In this document: positions 5,382 to 20,668 of the stretch, in pieces
Layout of the letters: every line of letters begins with the position of its first letter
Numbering within the stretch: position 1 is the stretch's first letter
Assembly: GCF_001434255.1 (NCBI RefSeq)
Contig: NZ_AZEY01000098.1
Location: 1 to 64,000 of the forward strand
Length of the DNA stretch: 64,000 nucleotides
Reading direction: 5' to 3'
Source of the DNA: Lentilactobacillus diolivorans DSM 14421
GTDB taxonomy: Bacteria > Bacillota > Bacilli > Lactobacillales > Lactobacillaceae
Translations under genes and position numbers: made by a program
The notes under the pieces: model-generated
Seen by the model: the letters and a program-made list of their open reading frames with translations, nothing else
The model's database searches: none
Told to the model about the DNA's origin: nothing

Positions 5382-5603
5382 TTATTGAAACTGGTATCAA
5401 AATAGGTTAAAAAATCCCACGGAGCGCAATCAATTTGTTACAATCATTTCACAAAGAATGACAATTCAGTACCAAATGATCTGACCCCCTTGAAATTCAA
5501 TTTTGACATGCTAACATAAGCGATAATGCATTAGTGTGAGTGCATCATAGTTTGAGTTGATCGCACATTTACAGGTTTGTTGGAAGGAAGCAACATACAA
5601 ATA
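5382..5603. other. intergenic region before glycerophosphodiesterase
   Basis: About 220 bp without a gene. It contains AT-rich promoter-like sequence before the downstream gene but no clear operator, hairpin terminator or repeat that can be supported. Confidence 0.4.
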
Positions 5604-6293
5604 ATGATAAACAAAACATTGATCTTCGGCCATCGTGGCTATCCTCAGAAGTTTCCAGAAAACTCATTAGACGGCTTTGCGTATGCCATTAATCACGGAA
5701 TTGATGGCTTGGAATTTGATGTTCATTTGACTAAGGACAATGTTCCAGTTATTATGCACGATGAAAAGATTGACCGAACCACCAATGGAACTGGCGAAAT
5801 TCGTTCGTATACTTTCAAAGCTTTACGAACTTTTCAGCTTAGTGATGGTCAAACAATCCCAACCTTAAAAGAATTACTTGATCTTGCTGAAAATAAGCCG
5901 GTTCATTTAAACTTGGAATTTAAGACAAATGAAATTCACTATCCCAATATTGAACAGATTGTCCTTGATATGGTGAAAAATTACGATTTGGTTTATCCTG
6001 TGATCTACTCATCATTTAACTTGGATTCACTCAAGGTGGCTTATAAAATTGATCCAACGCAGCAGTATTGCTTACTTGCTGATCACGATATTAAGAATCC
6101 ACGTGATCTAATGGCTAAGGAACATTTGGCCGGGTTGCATTTGAGCCATTATCAACCTTTGAGAAACGTTAAAGAACGGATTTGGACCGTTGATGATCCC
6201 AAGAAACAGAAAGCTTTGTTAAGCCAAAATGTTGCCGGTATTTTTACCGATGACTTTGAATCTGCTGAACAGGTGGCAAGTTCATTGGCTTAG
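5604..6293 (+). CDS. glycerophosphodiester phosphodiesterase (copy 1)
   Basis: Hydrolyses glycerophosphodiesters such as glycerophosphocholine to sn-glycerol-3-phosphate and an alcohol. The 229-residue protein has the GDPD TIM-barrel signature: FGHRGYP near residue 8, the ENS..GF segment, the GLEFDVHLTKD block with acidic metal ligands, and MHDEKIDRTTNG. No signal peptide, so probably cytosolic. A second, very similar copy is at 19641-20351 behind the ugp operon. The frame is open to a TTG at 5577, but alignment with the other copy supports the ATG at 5604; the GGAAGGAAG element is unusually far (about 15 nt). Confidence 0.9.
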   Translation: MINKTLIFGHRGYPQKFPENSLDGFAYAINHGIDGLEFDVHLTKDNVPVIMHDEKIDRTTNGTGEIRSYTFKALRTFQLSDGQTIPTLKELLDLAENKPVHLNLEFKTNEIHYPNIEQIVLDMVKNYDLVYPVIYSSFNLDSLKVAYKIDPTQQYCLLADHDIKNPRDLMAKEHLAGLHLSHYQPLRNVKERIWTVDDPKKQKALLSQNVAGIFTDDFESAEQVASSLA

Positions 6294-7152: not shown

Positions 7153-8511
7153 TTATTTGCTTGCTGATGCGTTAGCAGTCTTGGTGCTTGAAGATGTTGA
7201 TGCTGGTGTTTTAGCAGGTGTCGTTGTGGGTGTCTTGACTGAAGATTGTTGCTTATCAACGACTTTGCCCTTGGCATCATAATAGGCTTTTGCATAAGCA
7301 ACTTGGGCAACCGTATTTGTACTATAATCCGGATTATAGGCTTTACCAGCCGCAAAATCTTTCGTTGCTTGAGCTTGAGCCTTATTGGTGATAAAGGTAT
7401 TGTCAAGGTTAGTACCCTTGGCATCATAATAAGTTTGCGCATAGACGGTTTGACCTAAAGTGTCATTACTATAATTAGGGTTGTACTCCTTACCGTTTTG
7501 ATAGTCGGTTTGGGCTTGTGTAGTGGCGTCATCAATGACTTTGCCCTTGGCGTTATAGTAAGCTTCCGCATAAGCAACTTGGGCAACTGTATTTGTACTG
7601 TAAGTCGGATCATAGGCTTTGCCAGCCGCAAAATCCTGTGCTGCTTGGGTTTGGGCCCGATCGGTAATGAAGTCGTTGTCAAGATCACTACCCTTGGCAC
7701 CATAATAAGTTTGTGCATAAACGGTTTGACCGACACTGTTGTTGCTATAATTAGGATTGTAGCTCTTACCGTTTTGATAATCTGTTTGGGCTTGTTTAAT
7801 CGCTGCATCAACGACTTTACCCTTAGCGGCATAGTAAGCTTGGGCATATGCTACTTGTGCTGCACTGTCGCTACTGTAATTAGCGTTGTAATCCTTCCCG
7901 GCAGCGAAATCCTTTTCTGCCTGAGACTTGGCAATTGTAGCCGGATCAGTTGGTGTTACCGGAGTAGTCGGTGTTGAACTGGAACTACTGGATGACCCAG
8001 GTGTTGTAGCTGTAGAATTATTTGAGGCTGCCGGAGTCGATGAATTGTTATCTGAGGAGCTGGAGCTTGTTGGGGTGGAACTTGATGTTGGCGTTGTTGT
8101 GGTGGTTTGGGTTGATGTTGTTGCGGTTACCTTAGCCTTGTTGATTTTGCCAAACCTGACGTTCTTTTTATTCACCCAACCAGAGATTGATTTTGCATTA
8201 ACATGTGCTTTAACGTAATAATAGATGGTGCCACCCTTTACCTCCATGTGGCGGTATGTATAGAAAGTGGTATGTTTATAGTTGTTCATATTGTGAACTT
8301 TCTTAACTTTTTTTGCAGTCTTATATGGATGATTTAACAGGACAGATTTGTTGTTTTTGTAGTGAACAGCATATTTCTTGGCGGTTGGTTTATTCCATAA
8401 TACATAATGAGAATAGGAAGTTGTTTTGGCAGAAGCGGTTGCAGCGCCAAAACCTCCCAGCATCGTTAAAGCAGCTAATGATGATAGTGCAAGTTGATTG
8501 ATTCTTTTCAT
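7153..8511 (-). CDS. secreted surface protein with five tandem 43-residue repeats
   Basis: 452-residue exported protein. Signal peptide (MKRINQLALSSLAAL..., cleavage near ATASA), then a domain of about 100 residues with WNKPTAKKY and NNYKHTTFYTY..GWV, resembling the wall-associated modules of other secreted proteins in this window. A Thr/Ser/Pro linker (about 135-190) follows, then five tandem units of about 43-44 residues built on Q.DF..GK.Y.P.YS....Q.AYAQAYY.AKG. The tail is Ser/Thr/Lys-rich without LPXTG. GGAGGG lies 8 nt before the ATG. Function unknown; adhesion or wall association is plausible from the architecture. It is convergent with the 6438 gene. Confidence 0.8.
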   Translation of the reverse strand: MKRINQLALSSLAALTMLGGFGAATASAKTTSYSHYVLWNKPTAKKYAVHYKNNKSVLLNHPYKTAKKVKKVHNMNNYKHTTFYTYRHMEVKGGTIYYYVKAHVNAKSISGWVNKKNVRFGKINKAKVTATTSTQTTTTTPTSSSTPTSSSSSDNNSSTPAASNNSTATTPGSSSSSSSTPTTPVTPTDPATIAKSQAEKDFAAGKDYNANYSSDSAAQVAYAQAYYAAKGKVVDAAIKQAQTDYQNGKSYNPNYSNNSVGQTVYAQTYYGAKGSDLDNDFITDRAQTQAAQDFAAGKAYDPTYSTNTVAQVAYAEAYYNAKGKVIDDATTQAQTDYQNGKEYNPNYSNDTLGQTVYAQTYYDAKGTNLDNTFITNKAQAQATKDFAAGKAYNPDYSTNTVAQVAYAKAYYDAKGKVVDKQQSSVKTPTTTPAKTPASTSSSTKTANASASK

Positions 8512-8519
8512 AAAAGATC

Positions 8520-9561
8520 CCTCCAGATAGTTATTATTTCGGTGTTTCCCTCAATAAGACGGATAAAATAAAATTGACTTTTAGTTAAGTCAACAAGTTG
8601 AAACATACTTTTGACTATCATCTTCTTTCCTATTTTTATTAATAGTTATCAAAAAAGCCAGGCCAAAGAAATTGATGACAAACCACCCTAAGTAGGGCAA
8701 GATGGATTTAGGAATGCAATTATCCATTGCTGAATTCATCTCTCAGCTTTAATGACTAATAGTTTGACAGGTAATTCATTCTCTTAAGAAGCGGACGATG
8801 CTTATCTAACAGCTTAATTTTCCGTTTAAGCAGACCAATTCCGTTAACGGTTTTGATTGATGTCTCACCGTCTCTCAAAACATAATCTGAATTGGTAAAG
8901 CTAACCTGTCTTTTTTATCATTTGAGTATCCTTAACGTATTGAGTTTAAATTATCAATAAAAGGAGTGAAAGACAATTTTTATTGATTAAAAAATAAATT
9001 TGGTTATCTATGATAATAGTCTGAGGCTTAAGCCGGATGTTGAGGGGAACCAAATCCCTCGTGTATGTTTCCAGAATTTTAGCATCAAGTGGTCTTTATG
9101 ATGCCACTTGTTTAAATACCAAGTACCATCGGGATTTTCACCGCTAATTTTTCAATCGTTTTCAGAATAGTGATACCTAACGATGAACAGTTTAGGTTGA
9201 TGACCGACTGCTAAAAAATTTTTCTCGAAACGCCTTGGTTAGCGGACTATTTGTGTCCATTTTGATAACCAGCAACGTCAACAGCGTCGATTTATGATTT
9301 GAAGCCATTGTGTGTTTTGCTTTTCATTTGGTGTTATTCAAATATCTTTTAATGGGACAGATGTTTTAGTTTCACGGTCACGCTTTTCCTGAATTTGGTC
9401 ATTGTTGATAATAGCTAAATCAATCCTGAGGGCAAAGCAGCGTATGGCTATTGATCGCATAACCTTTTTGAGGCGGATTCTTTTTCACAATATCCCACAA
9501 TTTTCGACAGGTAAACTAAAGGTCTTTGATACAGTTTCAATAGTATTACAAAAAGGAGTGA
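8520..9561. other. gene-poor decayed region upstream of cas9
   Basis: About 1 kb without an intact gene. On the minus strand 8756-8918 and about 9345-9540 read as protein-like stretches without usable starts. An inverted repeat ATCAATAAAA/TTTTATTGAT lies at 8953-8987, and three small hairpins follow at 9030-9110 (GGCTTAAGCC, GAGGG/CCCTC, CAAGTGG/CCACTTG). The sequence AAAAGGAGTGAA.GACAA occurs at about 8959 and again at the cas9 ribosome site (9551-9569). In type II-A loci the tracrRNA often lies here, but no anti-repeat can be assigned because no CRISPR repeat is available. Confidence 0.45.
8756..8918 (-). pseudogene. protein-like fragment without start
   Basis: A 53-codon minus-strand stretch between stop codons encodes a coherent, lysine/leucine-rich peptide containing NSDYVLRDGETSIKTVNGIG and ending LLKRMNYLSNY. 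There is no start or ribosome site in frame; an ATG in another frame just upstream followed by a run of A suggests a frameshift. No family recognised. Treated as a gene remnant with low certainty. Confidence 0.3.
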
Positions 9562-12500
9562 ATGACAACGAAAAATCGAGAAAAAAATAATAAATTTCAT
9601 AAAGCTTCGCCGTTATATACTCTTGGACTTGATATCGGCACTACTTCTGTTGGGTTCACTGCTATTGATGAAGCGCAGCGACCTATGCGTGCAAAAGGGA
9701 AGACAGTGATTGGTGTGCGGCTCTTTCAAGAAGGTCAGTCAGCCGTTGGTCGAAAGAATTTCCGAACGACCCGCCGGCGATTGAAACGACGCCGGCGACG
9801 TCTCAACTTACTTAAGCAGTTTTTTAGTGCACCTTTGAGAAAAATTGATCCTACTTTTTTTAAGCGTTTGAAAGCTTCAAGTTTATCGCCTGCAGATAAG
9901 CGGCGATATTTGGCACCGGGGTTGTTTCCAAATGGTGGCGACATCAAGTTTTATCAAAAATATCCGACAATTTATCACTTGAGACTGGCACTGATGACTG
10001 AAAAGCGGCCATTTGACCTTCGCGAAGTGTATTTAGCGATTCATCATATTGTCAAATATCGTGGAAACTTTTTAAATCCACTACCGGTTTCAGCTTTTAG
10101 AGGTCGAAACCAGCGTTTTGAAGATCAGTTTTCTGAATTAAATCAGCTATACAAATCGTTAGAGGGCGAGTCGCCATTTCAATTTGATGAAAAAATTTTT
10201 TCCGAGTTGGACAAGCAACTTTTAGTTAATGACGGTCGAAAAATCGATCGCCAAAAACAACTAGCAAAAAGGGTGTTCATAAAGACAAATGAAAAAAGGA
10301 TTGATTCCCATCATCAAAAAATTGCGTCAGCGTTTTCAAAGGCTGTTTTCGGCTATAAGTTTCGGCCGGATGTGCTCTTAAATAGTGATCCTAATGAATC
10401 AATTGACGAATTTATTAAATTTGGAGATGAAGATTTTGATGATAAACTGGTCATCTTACGCGAGTCACTTAATGCCACGCAAAAAGAAATTTTGGCTGTC
10501 ACCCAACGAATTTATTCGCAGATCATCCTTAATGAAATAGTCCCAAGTCGGGAAACTTTATCTGAAGCAATGGTTAGTCGTTATCAAAAACACCATTCTG
10601 ACTTGCAATTGCTGACTGAGGCCTGCAAAAAGATGACCAAAGCTAAGGCGGCGCGGATTCAAGCAGCCTATACCGACTACATTGGTAAAGGGGACGGACA
10701 TAAGCTAGTTCACGATCAGTTTGTTGCACTTATTAAAAAGAACTTGGACCCGTCGGAAGAAGGGCGGGATTTGGCAGAACGGTTGGCTCAGGATGACTTT
10801 ATGCCATTGCAACGAACGCCTTTAAATCGGGTTATTCCGCATCAGCTGCAACAGGAAGAATTGGACCGGATTATTGAAAATCAGGGCGAGTACTATCCTT
10901 TTCTAAAAACGTTAAATCCCAATCGTTCACGAGCTGGGGTTGCCAACTATCAGTTGGACGAGTTGGTGAGTTTTCGCATTCCGTATTATGTTGGTCCGTT
11001 GATCACGGCAACTGATCAGCTGCATACTTCCGGAGCCAAATTTGCGTGGATGACGCGTCGGGCTGCCGGAGAAATCACGCCGTGGAACTTTGATCAAAAA
11101 GTTGATCGGCTTGCTTCAGCAAATCAGTTTATTCGTCAAAATATGCCTAAGGATAATCATTTGCTTGAGGCTGACGTTTTACCGGCCAATAGTTTGACTT
11201 ATCAACGGTACCTGGTTTTGGATGAGTTGAATGCTGTTAAGGTAAACCATAAGTCATTGACGGTTTCACAAAAGCAGCGCATCTTTAATGACTTGTTTAA
11301 AAGGCAAAGAACAGTGACGGTTCTAAATCTTCAAAATTATTTAAAGTCGATTGAAAAGCTGCCGACACTTCCGGTAATTACCGGAGTCTCTGATAGTGAG
11401 CGTTTTAAAACAACCTTATCAACCTATCTTGATTTTAAAAACATTTTTGGTGGTAAAGTGGATGATTCCTCCCAGAAAGAGAAATTTGAAAAGATTATTT
11501 TATATGCGACTATTTTTGAAGATCATGCTGTTTATAAAGCCAAGTTGGATCAGATCGATTGGCTAGGGCAACAGCAAAAAACGGATCTTCTTTCTAAGAA
11601 TTATCAAGGGTGGGGACAACTTTCTGAAAAGCTCTTATTAGGATTAAAAAATCAAGCCGGTCAATCAATTCTGGATGAACTTTGGCAAACAAATAAACGG
11701 TTTCGGGAAATAATGAATGAAGCTCATTTTGCGAAACAAATCATGGCATCCAATGCGGCCCTATTGAGAAAAAAAGGGCTTGATGATGTTTTATCCACCG
11801 CGTTTCTATCACCCCAAAATAAGAAAGCAATTCGGCAGACGGTCGAAGTTGTTGACGACATTGTGAAGGCAATCGGGTGCCCACCTCAGAAAATATCGTT
11901 GCATTTTTCCAAAGCACCTGCCGATGCAATTCGACATGAGCGGGATAATGCCAATATCATTCTTCGAACATATCGAAATTTACCTGCCAAAATGGTGGAT
12001 GACCAATTAAAAGCTGAATTACAGGCAACGGCGGAAAAGCATCAGGTGTTGTCGGACAAGTTGTACCTGTACTTTACTCAGCTTGGCCGGGACTTATACA
12101 CTGGTGAAATGCTTAAAATGAGTGAGTTGGAAAATGATATGATTGATCATATTATGCCCCAAACGTTTGCTTACGATGATTCGGTTAATAACCGTGTGTT
12201 GGTGTCTCAAAACCATTCGTCACAATTGGGGAAGACGTCTGGCGAAAAATCTGATGCCAAGATGATTCGGTTTTGGCAAGTGCTGCGCGACAATAAATTG
12301 ATTAGCGAACAGAAGTATCAAAATCTAACTTTGGACTCTGATCATTTATCTAAGTCGACCCGTGAACAATTGTTGAATCGCTACCTGGTCGAAAAGAATC
12401 CGATTACGCAGTGGGTTGCCAGTGTCTTAACCGAAAAGTATGGTGATAATGGGACTCGGGTTTTAACAATTAATCCAAGAATGGTTTATCAAATGCGACG

Positions 12501-13692
12501 CCAATTTAATTTGGTTAATTTGCCTGAAGTTAATGATTATGATCACGGTCTTGATGCTTATTTGGCGGCGTTTATTGGAAACTATGTGGATCGCCGATAT
12601 CCGCGGTTGCGATCCTACTTTGTCTATGGTGATTTTAGTTCATCCAAAGAGATTGTTTTTAGACTCAATCGGTTCAACTTTTTGTTTGACTTAGGGCAGG
12701 CTGAACCGAATGAGTTGACGGATTGGGAAACCGGTGAAATGATTTGGGATAAGGCAGCGGCAAACAGTGTGTTGCGTGACGTATACCAATATAAATTCAT
12801 GTTGATCTCTCAGGCGGTATACTCTCGGCAGGGTGCGATGTTTAATCAAACAATTTATCCGGCAAGTCAAGCTGCTGGACGACAGTTGATTCCCGTTAAG
12901 AAAAATCGGGCAACCAAGCTTTATGGTGGCTACAGTGGTAATGTTGATGCATATCTGGCTATTGTGCGCTTGGGTGGTCCAAAATCCGATCAGTACAGAG
13001 TAGTTGGGATTCCAACGAGAATGGTGGGCCGCTTGCAAAGCGCGATGAAACAAGGGGCCGATACTTATGCCAATACGTTGCATAAAATCCTTCAGCCGCA
13101 GTTTACCAAGCGAAAGAAAAATCGTCAGACAGGTTATTATGAAGAAACAACTGAACCCTTTGCGGTTATTCTGGATAAAGTTTATTATCGGCAGTTGATT
13201 ATTGATGGTCAGCAGAAGTTCATGCTGGGAAGTTCCACCTATCAATTTAATGCCAAGCAACTGGTACTGTCTTCAAGGGCGCGACAAATATTGAGTGGTG
13301 AAGAACGGTTAACCGATGAAAATGGCAGTCAGGATTTGATTGATGTTTATGATGAAATTTTAACCAAAATCGATCGTTATTTTGAATTGTATGATCAACG
13401 ACACTTCAGGCAATCGCTGCATGACGGCAGGAAGCAATTCATTTCTTTGCCAATTCACAATGTTTATCGTGCCAACCGGCTGATTGAACACGGAAAGTAC
13501 GAAACATTATCTCAGATTTTGAATGGTCTCCATGCTAACACGATGATGACCAATTTACGTTATCTGGGGATTTCGTCTCCATTTGGTAAATTTCAGTCGC
13601 CCAATGGGATTAAACTATCCAAGGATGCGGTCTTGGTTTACCAATCACCAAGTGGCTTGTTTGAAAGAAGAGTTCGCTTGCGAGATCTTTAA
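9562..13692 (+). CDS. cas9: orphan type II-A Cas9 with substituted catalytic residues
   Basis: RNA-guided DNA endonuclease family protein, 1376 residues, normal II-A length with no internal stop. Seen in order: RuvC-I (LGLDIGTTSVG, Asp24), an arginine-rich bridge helix (about 68-88), a REC lobe with HHIVKYRGNFL, RuvC-II, HNH with DHIMPQ (His863), RuvC-III (YDHGLDAYL, His995/Asp998), a PAM-interacting region with KLYGGYS (about 1119) and the C-terminal SGLFERRVRL. Odd: RuvC-II reads KISLHFSKA, so the metal-binding Glu (SpCas9 E762) is His781; the alignment is fixed by QTVEVVDDIVKAIG just before. In HNH, 23 residues after His863, where SpCas9 N863 and SaCas9 N580 sit, there is Ser886. Both nuclease centres therefore look impaired. 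No cas1, cas2, csn2 or array nearby. The ATG is only 3 nt after GGAG. Identity certain; loss of cleavage is inference. Confidence 0.95.
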   Translation: MTTKNREKNNKFHKASPLYTLGLDIGTTSVGFTAIDEAQRPMRAKGKTVIGVRLFQEGQSAVGRKNFRTTRRRLKRRRRRLNLLKQFFSAPLRKIDPTFFKRLKASSLSPADKRRYLAPGLFPNGGDIKFYQKYPTIYHLRLALMTEKRPFDLREVYLAIHHIVKYRGNFLNPLPVSAFRGRNQRFEDQFSELNQLYKSLEGESPFQFDEKIFSELDKQLLVNDGRKIDRQKQLAKRVFIKTNEKRIDSHHQKIASAFSKAVFGYKFRPDVLLNSDPNESIDEFIKFGDEDFDDKLVILRESLNATQKEILAVTQRIYSQIILNEIVPSRETLSEAMVSRYQKHHSDLQLLTEACKKMTKAKAARIQAAYTDYIGKGDGHKLVHDQFVALIKKNLDPSEEGRDLAERLAQDDFMPLQRTPLNRVIPHQLQQEELDRIIENQGEYYPFLKTLNPNRSRAGVANYQLDELVSFRIPYYVGPLITATDQLHTSGAKFAWMTRRAAGEITPWNFDQKVDRLASANQFIRQNMPKDNHLLEADVLPANSLTYQRYLVLDELNAVKVNHKSLTVSQKQRIFNDLFKRQRTVTVLNLQNYLKSIEKLPTLPVITGVSDSERFKTTLSTYLDFKNIFGGKVDDSSQKEKFEKIILYATIFEDHAVYKAKLDQIDWLGQQQKTDLLSKNYQGWGQLSEKLLLGLKNQAGQSILDELWQTNKRFREIMNEAHFAKQIMASNAALLRKKGLDDVLSTAFLSPQNKKAIRQTVEVVDDIVKAIGCPPQKISLHFSKAPADAIRHERDNANIILRTYRNLPAKMVDDQLKAELQATAEKHQVLSDKLYLYFTQLGRDLYTGEMLKMSELENDMIDHIMPQTFAYDDSVNNRVLVSQNHSSQLGKTSGEKSDAKMIRFWQVLRDNKLISEQKYQNLTLDSDHLSKSTREQLLNRYLVEKNPITQWVASVLTEKYGDNGTRVLTINPRMVYQMRRQFNLVNLPEVNDYDHGLDAYLAAFIGNYVDRRYPRLRSYFVYGDFSSSKEIVFRLNRFNFLFDLGQAEPNELTDWETGEMIWDKAAANSVLRDVYQYKFMLISQAVYSRQGAMFNQTIYPASQAAGRQLIPVKKNRATKLYGGYSGNVDAYLAIVRLGGPKSDQYRVVGIPTRMVGRLQSAMKQGADTYANTLHKILQPQFTKRKKNRQTGYYEETTEPFAVILDKVYYRQLIIDGQQKFMLGSSTYQFNAKQLVLSSRARQILSGEERLTDENGSQDLIDVYDEILTKIDRYFELYDQRHFRQSLHDGRKQFISLPIHNVYRANRLIEHGKYETLSQILNGLHANTMMTNLRYLGISSPFGKFQSPNGIKLSKDAVLVYQSPSGLFERRVRLRDL

Positions 13693-13885
13693 TGGTGGTG
13701 CTATTGAAGCCTTTGATTGAACATGTAGGCATGATAAAATAAGAAGTAGACCTTTTCGACAGAGAAATGATTCAAAAGTTTTGCCCTGTCGAGGAGTGAG
13801 TTTTAGCGTTAAGTCAGATTAATGAGGATAAACTTACTTCAATAAACAGTGGTCCTTAGCGTCACGGTTTATTAAAGGTTAGAAT

Positions 13886-14064
13886 CAGAGGCTGGGACAA
13901 TGTCATTTGTTCCAGCCTCTATTCGTGTAAACACGATTGTTACCGAGCAAAAACGCGGGACAAAAGGCAACTTCCGGCCGTGTAACCGAATTATCCAAAT
14001 ATTCAAGTTCAGAATATTCGAATAATCCGGTTACACTCTGGAAGTTAAGCACCTTTTGTCCCGC
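13886..14064 (+). repeat. composite intergenic palindromic element downstream of cas9
   Basis: Small hairpin GAGGCTGG.ACAA/TTGT.CCAGCCTC (13888-13919), the motif CGTGTAAACACGATTGTTACCGAG, then the large palindrome 13955-14064: outer arms GCGGGACAAAAGG/CCTTTTGTCCCGC, conserved CTTCCGGCCGTGTAA and TTACACTCTGGAAG, and an ATATTC-loop-GAATAT apex. It directly follows cas9 and may terminate its transcript. A roughly 43-bp imperfect direct repeat (13803-13845 and 14124-14168) flanks it. Confidence 0.8.
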
Positions 14065-14264
14065 TCTGGTTCGTTATGTAGGCCCATATAATGGGTCAGA
14101 AAGTTAAACTCGATAAAACTATCTTGCTTGATTTTAAGTTGTTAAGTCAGATTAATAAGGACAAGCCTCAGCTAAATATTAAGCTAAAATGTTACGGAAT
14201 TCAAGCAAAGTTGGGCCGGCAATCAGGAACTTTCTGTTTAAGTCTGGGTCAAATTAGAGTGTAT

Positions 14265-14696
14265 TTATTTAAACGAGTGCCGGGTTTTATCAATTGTTAA
14301 TTGAATTAATAAGATGAGTGGCCCCAAAAGTGCCTTTAATAGGCTGGTTGCTAACGTGAGGACAATGCCCAATTGATCATCGCGGCGTTTAATATCTTCA
14401 AACATGAGTTCATTATGTATTTTTTCACGATTGGTTAAGTAATGGTGTTGATACTGACTTTGATGATTTTCTGCTTTTAGCTTTTTTAGTGAGGCTTGGC
14501 CGAGTGACACGTTTTTGACAAAGAAATGTTGAGATGTGACTAATTTTATTTGGGAAATGGCTGATAAGAGCAGCCAAATGTTAAACCAGTTTAAGGTTGG
14601 CCGAAATCGGTATCGACAATCCAGGCTAACAAAAATGAACAAAATCAAAATGATTCCTAATTGCCAAAATAAGTAAAGGTAGTTTTTGATTCTCAT
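14265..14696 (-). CDS. small membrane protein of unknown function
   Basis: 143-residue protein with two N-terminal hydrophobic helices (LFWQLGIILILFIFVSL and a second near 40-55), a hydrophilic, basic and charged middle (about 65-115), and a C-terminal hydrophobic segment (LLKALLGPLILLIQL). GGAGAA lies 9 nt before the ATG. No family recognised. It is convergent with cas9 across the palindromic element; nothing links it functionally to cas9. Confidence 0.65.
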   Translation of the reverse strand: MRIKNYLYLFWQLGIILILFIFVSLDCRYRFRPTLNWFNIWLLLSAISQIKLVTSQHFFVKNVSLGQASLKKLKAENHQSQYQHHYLTNREKIHNELMFEDIKRRDDQLGIVLTLATSLLKALLGPLILLIQLTIDKTRHSFK

Positions 14697-15188
14697 TTAA
14701 ATTTGTTCTCCTTCCTTTATTCAATGAGGAACTAATAGTGAAGTTTTCTGTAGCTGATCGAAAGTAGTGACTTAAATAACATGGGTCATCAACTTTGGTA
14801 AAATATTTTTGCTTTCATTATAAAAGATATTTTTCAGAAATAAATAGTAATCGGTAAAATAACGATCCACTTAGTAGCAGCGATTATCCCCAGTTAAAAC
14901 GAGAAATGAAAGCTAGTTTTCGAGCTGTGTAAGCGTGTCGATGGCGGATAGTGGAATGGCGCGATATTCCTCAGCCAAAACGTGCAAAGTAACCGCAGCT
15001 TCCGGCCATATAAGCCCCACAAACAATATTCCCAAACCAGGAATATTGTTTGTGGGGCTTATATTCTGGAAGCTAACCGCGGTTCTTTGCACTCTTTTTA
15101 CATTAGTTTTACATTCCTTCAACCAACAATTTACATTCACCTGCAACAATGAAAATGTACTTAAATAAAACAAGTTGAGGTGAGATAT
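14697..15188. other. intergenic region before ugp operon
   Basis: About 490 bp with no gene. The first half is AT-rich with no recognised signal; the second half is occupied by the palindromic element at 14982-15092. The short plus- and minus-strand frames across that element are mirror images caused by the palindrome and are not genes. Confidence 0.6.
14982..15092 (+). repeat. intergenic palindromic element
   Basis: Inner stem of 25 perfect base pairs (15008-15032 with 15040-15064, starting ATATAAGCCCC) around a 7-nt loop, and outer arms GTGCAAAG...ACCGC / GCGGTTCTTTGCAC. Between the stems the asymmetric conserved blocks CTTCCGGCC and TCTGGAAG identify the family and its orientation. The arm sequences differ from the other copies in this window but remain complementary. 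Confidence 0.85.
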
Positions 15189-16277
15189 TTGTCAATTACA
15201 TTAAGAAATATCCGTAAAGATTACGACCAAAACACCGAAGTTCTCAAAGATGTCTCGGTTAAAGTTGAAACGGGAGAGTTCTTCGTTATTGTTGGCCCTT
15301 CTGGTTGTGGTAAGAGTACGTTACTTCGAATGATTGCAGGTTTAACACCGATTACTGGTGGTGAAGTTCAAATTGACGATCAAGTTGTTAATGAGTTGCC
15401 TCCAAAAGCACGAAAGTTAACAATGGTTTTTCAAAATTATGCTTTGTACCCATTTCTAAGTGTTTGGGATAACGTTGCGTTTGGTTTAAAAGCACGAAAG
15501 CTCGACAGTGCTGATATTAAGCAACGGGTTGATAATGCACTGAAGATGGTTAGTTTAACAAAGTTGCGAAAACGAAAGCCTCGTGAATTATCCGGTGGGC
15601 AGCGTCAACGAGTGGCATTGGCTCGGGCAGTTGCCAGTGATGCCAAGATTTGCCTGATGGATGAACCATTATCTAACTTGGATGCCCAGCTGCGAATTAA
15701 AATGCGTCAGGAAATTTATGCTTTGCAACGGAAACTGGGTTTAACTTTGATTTATGTCACCCATGACCAGGTTGAGGCAATGACGATGGCCGACCACATT
15801 ATGGTGTTGCATGACAAACATGTTCAACAGATTGGTACGCCATCAGAAATTTATCAGACACCGGCAAATGACTTTGTTGCCAAATTCTTCGGGACACCAC
15901 AAATTAATATTTTGCCGGCTAAACGATCTGCCGATAATGATCATATCTTAAATGTTTCCTCTGATTTGGAAATTGCCCTTAATCAACCAGTGCCTGCTGA
16001 GAACCTTAAAATTGGTGTTCGTCCCGACGACTTTAAAATTGAACGGGCTGATGGTGTCAGTTCAAATGCGGTTGTGAAAAATACTGAGTTCTTGGGGAAT
16101 GAAACGATTGTTTATGCCACGATGAATAGCGGGAGCGACATTCACGTTGTCGTTGACGGTCAGGTTGCCTTTAGAAGCTACGAACCGGTGAAAGTAACGG
16201 CTAGTTCAAAATTGCTGTTCTTTGATCAAAATGGTAACCGGATTAACTTAGCAAAGGAGGCCTTGGTACATGCTTAA
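15189..16277 (+). CDS. ugpC: glycerol-3-phosphate ABC transporter ATP-binding protein
   Basis: ATPase of a carbohydrate-type (CUT1) importer. With the TTG start at 15189: Walker A GPSGCGKS at 36-43, Q-loop Gln82, LSGGQ at 134-138, Walker B LMDEP at 156-160, switch His in VTHDQ, then the C-terminal OB-type regulatory domain (HVQQIGTPSEIY onward, IGVRPDD) seen in UgpC/MsmK/MalK. AGGTGAG lies 4 nt before the TTG; a GTG at 15180 is an alternative start. The gene overlaps the permease that follows by 8 nt. The substrate is inferred from the UgpB-like binding protein and the linked glycerophosphodiesterase. Confidence 0.9.
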   Translation: MSITLRNIRKDYDQNTEVLKDVSVKVETGEFFVIVGPSGCGKSTLLRMIAGLTPITGGEVQIDDQVVNELPPKARKLTMVFQNYALYPFLSVWDNVAFGLKARKLDSADIKQRVDNALKMVSLTKLRKRKPRELSGGQRQRVALARAVASDAKICLMDEPLSNLDAQLRIKMRQEIYALQRKLGLTLIYVTHDQVEAMTMADHIMVLHDKHVQQIGTPSEIYQTPANDFVAKFFGTPQINILPAKRSADNDHILNVSSDLEIALNQPVPAENLKIGVRPDDFKIERADGVSSNAVVKNTEFLGNETIVYATMNSGSDIHVVVDGQVAFRSYEPVKVTASSKLLFFDQNGNRINLAKEALVHA

Positions 16278-19640: not shown

Positions 19641-20351
19641 ATGACAAATAAAACATTGATTTTCGGTCATCGCGGTTACCCGTTTAAGTTTCCAGAAAAT
19701 TCATTAGATGGTTTTGAATATGCGATTGATCATGGTGCTGATGGATTGGAGTTTGATGTTCATTTAACCAAAGACAATGTGCCTGTTATTATGCACGATG
19801 AGAAGATTAATCGGACAACCAACGGAAAGGGAAAGATTCAAGCATATACTTACGCGGAATTGCAACAATTTCACCTAAGTGATGATGAAAAAATCCCGGC
19901 TTTGAAGGAATTGCTTGCGCTTGCCAGTCAAAAGCCAATTCATCTTAATCTTGAATTTAAAACCAACAAGATTCACTATCCAAATATTGAACGAATTGTC
20001 CTTGATATGGTCAAAGAATTTGATTTGGTTTACCCGGTTATCTATTCATCGTTTAACCTGGATTCGTTGAAGATCGCTAATAAAATTGATGCAACCCAGC
20101 AGTATTGTCTGCTTTCGGACCATCAAATTGACCATCCGCGTGAATTGATGATTAAAGATCATCTGGCTGGATTTCATTTGAGTCACTATCAACCGCTTCG
20201 AAATGTCAAAGAGCGGATCTGGACGATTGATGATCCAGTTAAGCAGCGAAATTTGTTTGCCATGCACGTTGCTGGGATTATTACCGATAATTTCGAAATG
20301 GCTAAACAGGTTGAAGCCAGCTTGGGTGCGGTTGTTCAACAGCGTGTGTAA
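19641..20351 (+). CDS. ugpQ: glycerophosphodiester phosphodiesterase (copy 2)
   Basis: 236-residue GDPD enzyme, closely similar to the 5604 gene over its whole length (FGHRGYP, GLEFDVHLTKD, MHDEKINRTTNG, YSSFNLDSLK). Makes glycerol-3-phosphate from glycerophosphodiesters in the cytosol, matching UgpQ. AAAGGAG lies 10 nt before the ATG. Its place behind ugpCAEB fits the ugp pathway, though it is separated from ugpB by 226 nt and a palindrome. The two copies likely arose by duplication. Confidence 0.9.
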   Translation: MTNKTLIFGHRGYPFKFPENSLDGFEYAIDHGADGLEFDVHLTKDNVPVIMHDEKINRTTNGKGKIQAYTYAELQQFHLSDDEKIPALKELLALASQKPIHLNLEFKTNKIHYPNIERIVLDMVKEFDLVYPVIYSSFNLDSLKIANKIDATQQYCLLSDHQIDHPRELMIKDHLAGFHLSHYQPLRNVKERIWTIDDPVKQRNLFAMHVAGIITDNFEMAKQVEASLGAVVQQRV

Positions 20352-20435
20352 TTAATTATTGTGAATCACTAGGTAGTTCCAATCAAGAAATAGTAATAAC
20401 ATCCTCCAATATTTCTCGATAAATATGAAGCCAGA

Positions 20436-20612
20436 GCGGGACAAAAGGTGTTTAACTTCCAAAGTGTAATTGGATTATCCGAATATTCTGAACTTGAATA
20501 TTTGGATAATTTAGTTACACGACCGGAAGTTGCCTTTTGTCCCGCGTTTTCGCTCGGTAACAATTGTGTTTGCACGAACAGAGGATGGGATAAATGACTA
20601 TTGTCCCATCCT
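20436..20612 (-). repeat. composite intergenic palindromic element
   Basis: Large palindrome 20436-20545 in inverted orientation (GCGGGACAAAAGG/CCTTTTGTCCCGC outer arms, GTGTAATTGGATTATCC inner arm, GAATATTC apex), followed by CTCGGTAACAATTGTG and the hairpin GAGGATGGGATAA/TTGTCCCATCCTC. Same two-part order as at 13886-14064 but flipped. Confidence 0.8.
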
Positions 20613-20668
20613 CGCTCTTTTGGATACCCTGAAATTACAGAGGCGTTAATGAAGTGGTCTCATTTTTA

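Follow-up and report, generated by a model that had tools for sequence, protein, structure and literature searches.

Engineered dCas9 is a standard laboratory tool, and a cas9 gene of Lentilactobacillus diolivorans DSM 14421 raises the question of whether a Cas9 that binds DNA without cutting it may also occur in nature. The gene lies in a stretch of 64,000 nucleotides, hereafter the window, which is the first 64 kb of a contig of 155,984 bases (C45) in a genome of 3.26 Mb and 109 contigs. It encodes a type II-A-like Cas9 of 1376 amino acids with no stop codon and no frameshift, as the preliminary description of this DNA had stated (coordinates in Table 1). In this protein the RuvC-II glutamate is replaced by His781 and the HNH asparagine by Ser886. 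The reading that we favour, at a probability of roughly 60%, is that of a Cas9 derived from a II-A system that no longer cuts, has kept guide-RNA loading and DNA recognition, would silence by binding and is under selection.

Both altered columns, which the preliminary description had singled out, are strongly conserved elsewhere. Glu and Asn are each found in 99 of the 101 other distinct full-length Cas9s of the family (identical proteins and L011, L020 and L047, each shorter than 1250 amino acids, are excluded), and the exceptions in the two columns are the same two proteins (L119 and L127), each altered at both sites. A third change had been overlooked: the first histidine of the RuvC-III motif HHxxD, His in 100 of the 101 others, is Asp994 in the window Cas9. 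The retention of His995 and Asp998 in that motif, and of Asp24 and His863, was reported correctly. Codons at the altered sites are CAT (His781), TCG (Ser886) and GAT (Asp994); the catalytic residues still present are Asp24 (GAT), Asp862 (GAT), His863 (CAT), Asn877 (AAC), His995 (CAC) and Asp998 (GAT). Asn884 (AAC), which had been named as a possible stand-in for the HNH asparagine, is never assigned to that column; the alignments put it at Ser886 or His885 (CAT). The placement of Ser886 is taken from alignment, because the AlphaFold model has a predicted local distance difference test score (pLDDT) below 50 at residues 886–891. In SpCas9, E762A or N863A each yields a nickase. At the level of sequence, the window Cas9 is thus confirmed to be altered in both nuclease centres, and the protein probably no longer cleaves.

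The remaining architecture is that of a type II-A Cas9, with REC, bridge helix, RuvC, HNH and PI. The Pfam models Cas9_REC, PI, RuvC and HNH_4 all score over their cut-offs, and the bridge-helix model reaches 22 bits, under its cut-off of 26.3. The AlphaFold model of residues 1–1166 (mean pLDDT 78.6) matches SpCas9 structures (Foldseek, E 3.7e-61). The GC content of the gene is 0.414, the same as in the genome's other cas9 and close to the 0.397 of the whole window. Missing from the usual II-A inventory are the catalytic residues of both centres, a repeat–spacer array (there is one repeat) and cas1, cas2 and csn2 adjoining cas9, for which tblastn at E 1e-3 found no match in the window. The gene had been called solitary, which holds for these adaptation genes; a trans-activating CRISPR RNA (tracrRNA) gene and the repeat nonetheless lie directly downstream, and another contig of the genome encodes a further Cas9 in a II-A locus that is complete.

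In a leave-one-out comparison of 36 dereplicated sequences, the window Cas9 breaks 23 of 170 invariant columns. These breaks concentrate in RuvC-II, linker, HNH and RuvC-III (14 of 48 columns, against 9 of 122 elsewhere; p 0.0007), with domain boundaries set by hand and RuvC-I (0 of 10 broken) pooled with 'elsewhere'. A rerun that counts RuvC-I as nuclease (89 sequences, 98% criterion) gives 6 of 36 in the nuclease parts versus 2 of 68 elsewhere (p 0.02). The runner-up breaks 9 of 156 columns and every other sequence three at most. When neutral drift was simulated up to 29% amino-acid change, a target equal to the break rate in the nuclease parts, every one of 40 runs accumulated 15 or more stops; the window gene has none. 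The marks of a pseudogene (stops, frameshifts and relaxed constraint throughout) are missing. The intact frame had been read as a sign of selection, and this reading gains from both the concentration of breaks and the simulations, which support constraint on the remainder of the protein.

No close relative was seen: the nearest Cas9 has at most 48% identity among the other 23 genomes of the genus and sampled sets of 397 family and 395 order genomes, and scans of genome contigs and viral contigs likewise held nothing above 48%. Of the 397 family genomes 153 gave matches, and the survey drew on part of these, namely the loci retrieved automatically and 60 more picked down the ranking. In the tree, the terminal branch of the window Cas9 is long (0.89) and its placement poorly supported (0.21). 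The runner-up in the column comparison, from Secundilactobacillus silagei (L016), has eight of its nine breaks in RuvC or HNH parts and retains the RuvC-II Glu and the HNH Asn.

RNA components beside the gene

A covariance model built from 13 tracrRNAs (12 from relatives and one from the genome's own complete locus on contig C56) calls a tracrRNA downstream of cas9 at 53.6 bits (E 1.2e-10 in 64 kb), its sole match at E ≤10; the next-best unfiltered match in 8500–15300 scores 14.2 bits. At the 13 model loci the anti-repeat lies 110–124 bases past the cas9 stop, and the tracrRNA is read from the strand opposite to cas9. In an alignment, the copy at 13800 falls among repeats and the one at 14124 among anti-repeats, and the two pair almost perfectly although both diverge from those of relatives. 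Their duplex is predicted at −38.3 kcal/mol, whereas 200 shuffled versions average −13.8 and none goes below −22.9; predictions for the own repeat–tracrRNA pairs of nine other loci range from −42.3 to −49.4 kcal/mol. The repeat core is found in the genome in the repeat and the anti-repeat, plus one site with three mismatches, and has no other genomic copy at two mismatches or fewer. A pattern derived from the site itself finds no second repeat in the window. A degenerate candidate at 13867, 67 bases from the first, was rejected, its pairing (−19.7 kcal/mol) being inside the shuffle range. An Rfam scan of the window at gathering thresholds returned nothing.

Table 1 Features of the cas9 locus and the surrounding segment
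Feature	Position	Strand	Remarks
Extra segment	6271..15095		two secreted-looking protein genes, decayed sequence, cas9, RNA parts
Type II-A-like Cas9	9562..13692	+	RuvC-II Glu to His781, HNH Asn to Ser886, first His of HHxxD to Asp994
Putative leader and guide segment	13747..13799	+	proposed from its position 5′ of the repeat
Single CRISPR repeat, GTTTTAGCGTTAAGTCAGATTAATGAGGATAAACTT	13800..13835	+	starts GTTTTAG, as do repeats of relatives
Dispersed palindromic (MITE-like) element, ~183 bases	13888..14069		between repeat and tracrRNA
tracrRNA gene	14047..14174	-	anti-repeat 14124-14165; nexus and TACATAA box retained

Upstream of the putative guide segment, a promoter-like site at 13713–13740 has TG before its second hexamer; it is one of 29 such sites in the region, versus 17.9 in shuffles. 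The eight bases that precede the repeat, AGGAGTGA, recur at the cas9 ribosome-binding site. Autoregulation by self-targeting is not claimed here, because this shared 8-mer resembles a Shine–Dalgarno sequence and nowhere else in the window does the segment match over 10 or more bases.

The genome's second system, on contig C56 (L003:7820-18862), is complete for type II-A: its Cas9 has intact sites and is 46% identical to the window Cas9, and the locus further comprises cas1, cas2, csn2 and an array of 74 similar repeats and 73 spacers. Its repeat was rejected as partner of an anti-repeat near the window cas9, the match not being significant. Its duplex with the window tracrRNA (−15.4 kcal/mol) is at chance level (shuffle mean −13.7), and the window repeat pairs with the C56 tracrRNA at shuffle level as well (−16.9 kcal/mol). 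The window RNA parts and the C56 system are accordingly predicted to be orthogonal. The proposal that the window Cas9 is a catalytically dead, RNA-guided DNA binder is supported in part, by the two substituted centres and by the tracrRNA with its matching repeat; loss of cleavage and DNA binding are what we infer from them.

Other Cas9s altered at both centres

Seven further Cas9s appear dead at both centres, as judged from their residues: two in other genomes, brought to light by the family survey, and five on Lactobacillus plasmids, with arrays at five of the seven loci. L141 (genome G370) has RuvC-I Asp changed to Thr, RuvC-II Glu to Met, HNH Asp to Leu and HH to YR; it has an array of eight repeats, the last degenerate, and an anti-repeat just 5′ of cas9. 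L142 (genome G102) has Glu changed to Gly and Asn to Thr, with the remaining catalytic residues intact, and its neighbours are ribosomal-protein genes, identified by eye. A tracrRNA-like stretch at L142 pairs with one repeat at −43.7 kcal/mol (lowest of 200 shuffles, −33.2) and with a second repeat no better than shuffles, a layout that resembles the window locus. Both genomes have one Cas9_REC match each. The plasmid proteins (L158, L159, L162, L163 and L164) have all lost RuvC-I Asp, RuvC-II Glu and HNH Asp; they come from Lactobacillus crispatus (NZ_CP083391 and NZ_CP047143), L. taiwanensis (NZ_CP059277) and L. johnsonii (NZ_CP040856 and NZ_CP040855). Arrays of 9–21 repeats, some degenerate, accompany four of the five, and none was seen on NZ_CP047143. 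The anti-repeat is clear at L164 and L141, marginal at L163 and not found at L158, L162 and L159 (the last tested with the L158 repeat). Two of these plasmids, NZ_CP040856 (L163) and NZ_CP040855 (L164), reside together in L. johnsonii G2A, and both bear an array beside a dead cas9. A sixth Lactobacillus plasmid record (Lactobacillus sp. JM1; 176 REC residues only) and records of Listeria, Escherichia and Klebsiella plasmids were left out. Plasmid location alone does not imply inactivation, because the Cas9 of a 343,860-base plasmid of Nicoliella spurrieriana (NZ_CP093360.1, or G054:C1; L075) belongs to a complete II-A locus and has intact catalytic columns.

Dead and active loci were also compared for adaptation genes. 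No cas1, cas2 or csn2 was found in the examined stretches (14–64 kb) of the eight dead loci, and cas1 was found in 33 of 33 evaluable active loci (p 1e-8 for dead versus active, with loci picked by similarity rather than at random and dead cases not all independent). The count leaves out the active loci L010 and L014, which end right after cas9; L022 and L074 are the same contig, and L026–L028 lie outside the family.

L142 can be compared with L160 (genome G128), an orthologue of 83% identity with intact sites and with cas1, cas2 and csn2. The overall dN between them is 0.099 and dS 0.89, a ratio of 0.11. With changes polarized by the outgroup L161, and the same hand-set approach to domain boundaries, the nuclease parts have 58 amino-acid changes on the dead branch versus 19 on the active one, for 34 versus 32 synonymous changes (p 0.005). 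Elsewhere the amino-acid changes are 26 versus 17 and the synonymous ones 43 versus 42 (p 0.35). Against pooled synonymous changes (77 versus 74), the values are p 0.0004 for the nuclease parts and 0.30 elsewhere; nuclease and other amino-acid changes compared directly give p 0.10. The excess in L142 is highest at residues 801–1000. In our reading, constraint on the dead Cas9 has eased in the parts that would cleave and has persisted in those that would bind.

A few spacers of these loci match plasmids. None of the 54 spacers of five dead-Cas9 arrays matches any of 50,697 phage records at E ≤1, whereas for five of them a match lies in a Lactobacillus plasmid other than their own (in part of the plasmid search, three arrays were covered with 23 of their 26 spacers and a fourth with 17 of 20). 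L141 spacer 1 matches 30 of 30 bases in NZ_CP047143 (E 3e-4), which itself bears a dead cas9. L162 spacer 2 matches 29 of 30 in CP024782 and CP016630 (E 0.01), the latter with a second matching place, and L164 spacer 15 matches 28 of 30 in NZ_CP072179 and NZ_CP118066 (E 0.1). The match of L163 spacer 2 (27 of 28; E 0.06) is to NZ_CP040855, the co-resident plasmid of the same strain, and that of L164 spacer 11 (27 of 28; E 0.04) lies inside the dead cas9 of L. taiwanensis NZ_CP059277 (43559–43586). Several of these E values are weak singly, and the weight lies in all best matches being Lactobacillus plasmids. Matches to Staphylococcus, Campylobacter and Borreliella (E ≥0.5) were treated as chance. 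The protospacer 3′ flanks are too few to call a protospacer-adjacent motif.

Weighing the explanations

For the window locus, we favour a history in which a complete II-A system would have lost cas1, cas2, csn2 and its array. The Cas9 would use its own tracrRNA together with an RNA bearing the single repeat, the complex would bind DNA matching the segment 5′ of that repeat, and the bound protein would block transcription or replication without cleavage; selection on the RNA- and DNA-binding parts would preserve the gene. Expression, DNA binding and silencing are inferred steps of this scheme. Several observations weigh against it. The bridge helix breaks 2 of 11 invariant columns (R65K and W79R) and REC 7 of 93, and binding may therefore be impaired. 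The 3′ terminator hairpin of the relatives is not recognizable in the window tracrRNA. The guide segment is predicted to fold as a hairpin (13756–13792), with a second hairpin that includes the repeat, and it has no target in its own genome at three mismatches or fewer and no credible one in phages or plasmids. A collapsing array would likewise leave one repeat. Pairwise dN/dS between L142 and L160 is nearly equal in the nuclease parts (0.103) and elsewhere (0.088), because the estimated dS is higher in the nuclease part (1.9 versus 0.67); of the four-fold sites, 55 of 114 in the nuclease part and 116 of 308 elsewhere are changed. Finally, two of the five plasmid cas9 genes are interrupted, that of NZ_CP083391 (L158) by a frame break and that of NZ_CP040855 (L164) by IS30.

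These interruptions would also suit an early relic, that is, a decayed II-A locus whose reading frame is out of selection and has not yet acquired a stop. The loss of the adaptation genes and array, the decayed sequence upstream, the dispersed element adjoining the tracrRNA and the long terminal branch all fit such decay. We nevertheless consider a relic rather unlikely: the gene is free of the stops and frameshifts that drift would have brought, its breaks cluster in the nuclease parts, repeat and anti-repeat have stayed matched while diverging from those of relatives, and the L142/L160 parallel shows no acceleration outside the nuclease parts. That dead Cas9s lacking adaptation genes turn up again in relatives, and that L142 has changed in the way described, argues in the same direction. 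The six retained catalytic residues leave room for residual nicking, and the protein could be crippled and not dead, a slow nickase or an enzyme with altered metal use, in which His781 and a neighbour replace ligands and which still defends the cell. In enzymes of the RNase H-like fold, histidine is among the accepted ligands of the metal. Both centres and several adjacent invariant residues are altered, however, no array remains to guide defence, and the parallel plasmid copies have lost further catalytic residues, so that we hold this to be improbable. A role as decoy, sequestering crRNAs of other systems as proposed for a phage II-C Cas9 with dead RuvC (PMC10910872), would find a partner in the complete II-A system of the same genome, and the window tracrRNA is indeed present without a full array. 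The predicted orthogonality of the two sets of RNAs argues against it; the neighbouring genes keep the gene order of the genus, viral contigs yielded no relative, and we give this role very little credence.

Taken with its relatives, the locus may belong to a wider group. We put forward, as a tentative proposal at slightly less than even odds, that dead type II systems form a class of their own in Lactobacillaceae, recurrent and so far undescribed, in which both centres and cas1, cas2 and csn2 were lost several times, repeats and tracrRNA were kept and binding alone would act. The plasmid copies would silence plasmids, including a co-resident one, and the window copy and L142 would be turning into dedicated regulators, a conversion suggested by the single well-paired repeat at both. 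The data suggest that the relatives live as plasmid-against-plasmid silencers, similar to types IV-A and V-M in function but unrelated to them by descent. For the window copy, which has a single repeat and chromosome-like surroundings, the present state may mark either a move further towards regulation or the final phase before the gene is lost.

Among known systems, the closest in form are lactobacillar II-A loci such as that of Lentilactobacillus parakefiri (L022). They share with the window the Cas9 architecture, the opposite-strand tracrRNA 3′ of cas9 and the GTTTTAG start of the repeat; the window differs in lacking cas1, cas2, csn2 and a multi-spacer array and in having both nuclease centres substituted. 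Phage II-C2 Cas9s with inactivated RuvC (PMC10910872, PMC12669027) likewise combine an inactivated Cas9 and a tracrRNA with no array of their own. Their HNH is described as active and their anti-repeat fits the host array, whereas the window Cas9 is altered at both centres, sits between syntenic host genes and has an anti-repeat that does not complement the host array. Types IV-A and V-M (Cas12m) have non-cleaving effectors, as predicted for the window, often lack adaptation genes and have spacers against other plasmids, as do the Lactobacillus plasmid relatives (PMC11656645); the window effector is instead a full-length Cas9, not on a known plasmid, with one repeat and no credible target found. 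The CampyICE1 Cas9 (PMC8743540) is likewise part of a type II system that is incomplete, resides on a mobile element and has spacers directed at competing plasmids; it differs in being type II-C with RuvC and HNH motifs reported as conserved. The natural guide tracr-L (PMC11417352) also makes Cas9 a non-cleaving repressor through an RNA encoded at the locus; that Cas9 is active, however, and for the guide segment no self-match of at least 10 bases was found within the window.

A natural Cas9 that has lost both centres was not seen in searches of the open-access literature. In its accessible part, the November 2025 classification (PMC12669027) names only a phage Cas9 with dead RuvC and apparently active HNH, and a large catalogue of Cas9 orthologues is described as retaining only those with catalytic residues (PMC7606464). 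Filtering on catalytic residues may explain the gap. If binding without cutting is confirmed, dCas9 would have arisen naturally several times, and silencing without cleavage would be found in type II as well as in types IV-A and V-M. The source genome offers a clean test, with an intact-site Cas9 and a dead Cas9, each with separate RNAs, in one cell.

Genomic setting

The cas9 gene is part of a segment that is extra in the source genome, because the homologous flanking genes, for a glycerophosphodiester phosphodiesterase and an ABC transporter, sit only 0.2–0.6 kb apart in the relatives G004 and G006. A phage origin was rejected, because the viral contigs contained no relative of either the window Cas9 or L159. 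About 1 kb directly upstream of cas9 (8512–9561) is apparently decayed; it has no plasmid match and none among the matches listed for the genus, and Pfam found nothing credible in four decayed fragments. The MITE-like element between repeat and tracrRNA occurs in at least 12 other places in the genome, with a second window copy at 20431–20613 and diverged copies in G004 and other relatives. Also within the extra segment, positions 7153–8511 encode a secreted-looking protein of 452 amino acids with repeated KDFAAGK-type units. Two similar glycerophosphodiester phosphodiesterase genes (5577–6293 and 19641–20351) bracket the cas9 segment and the ABC-transporter operon.

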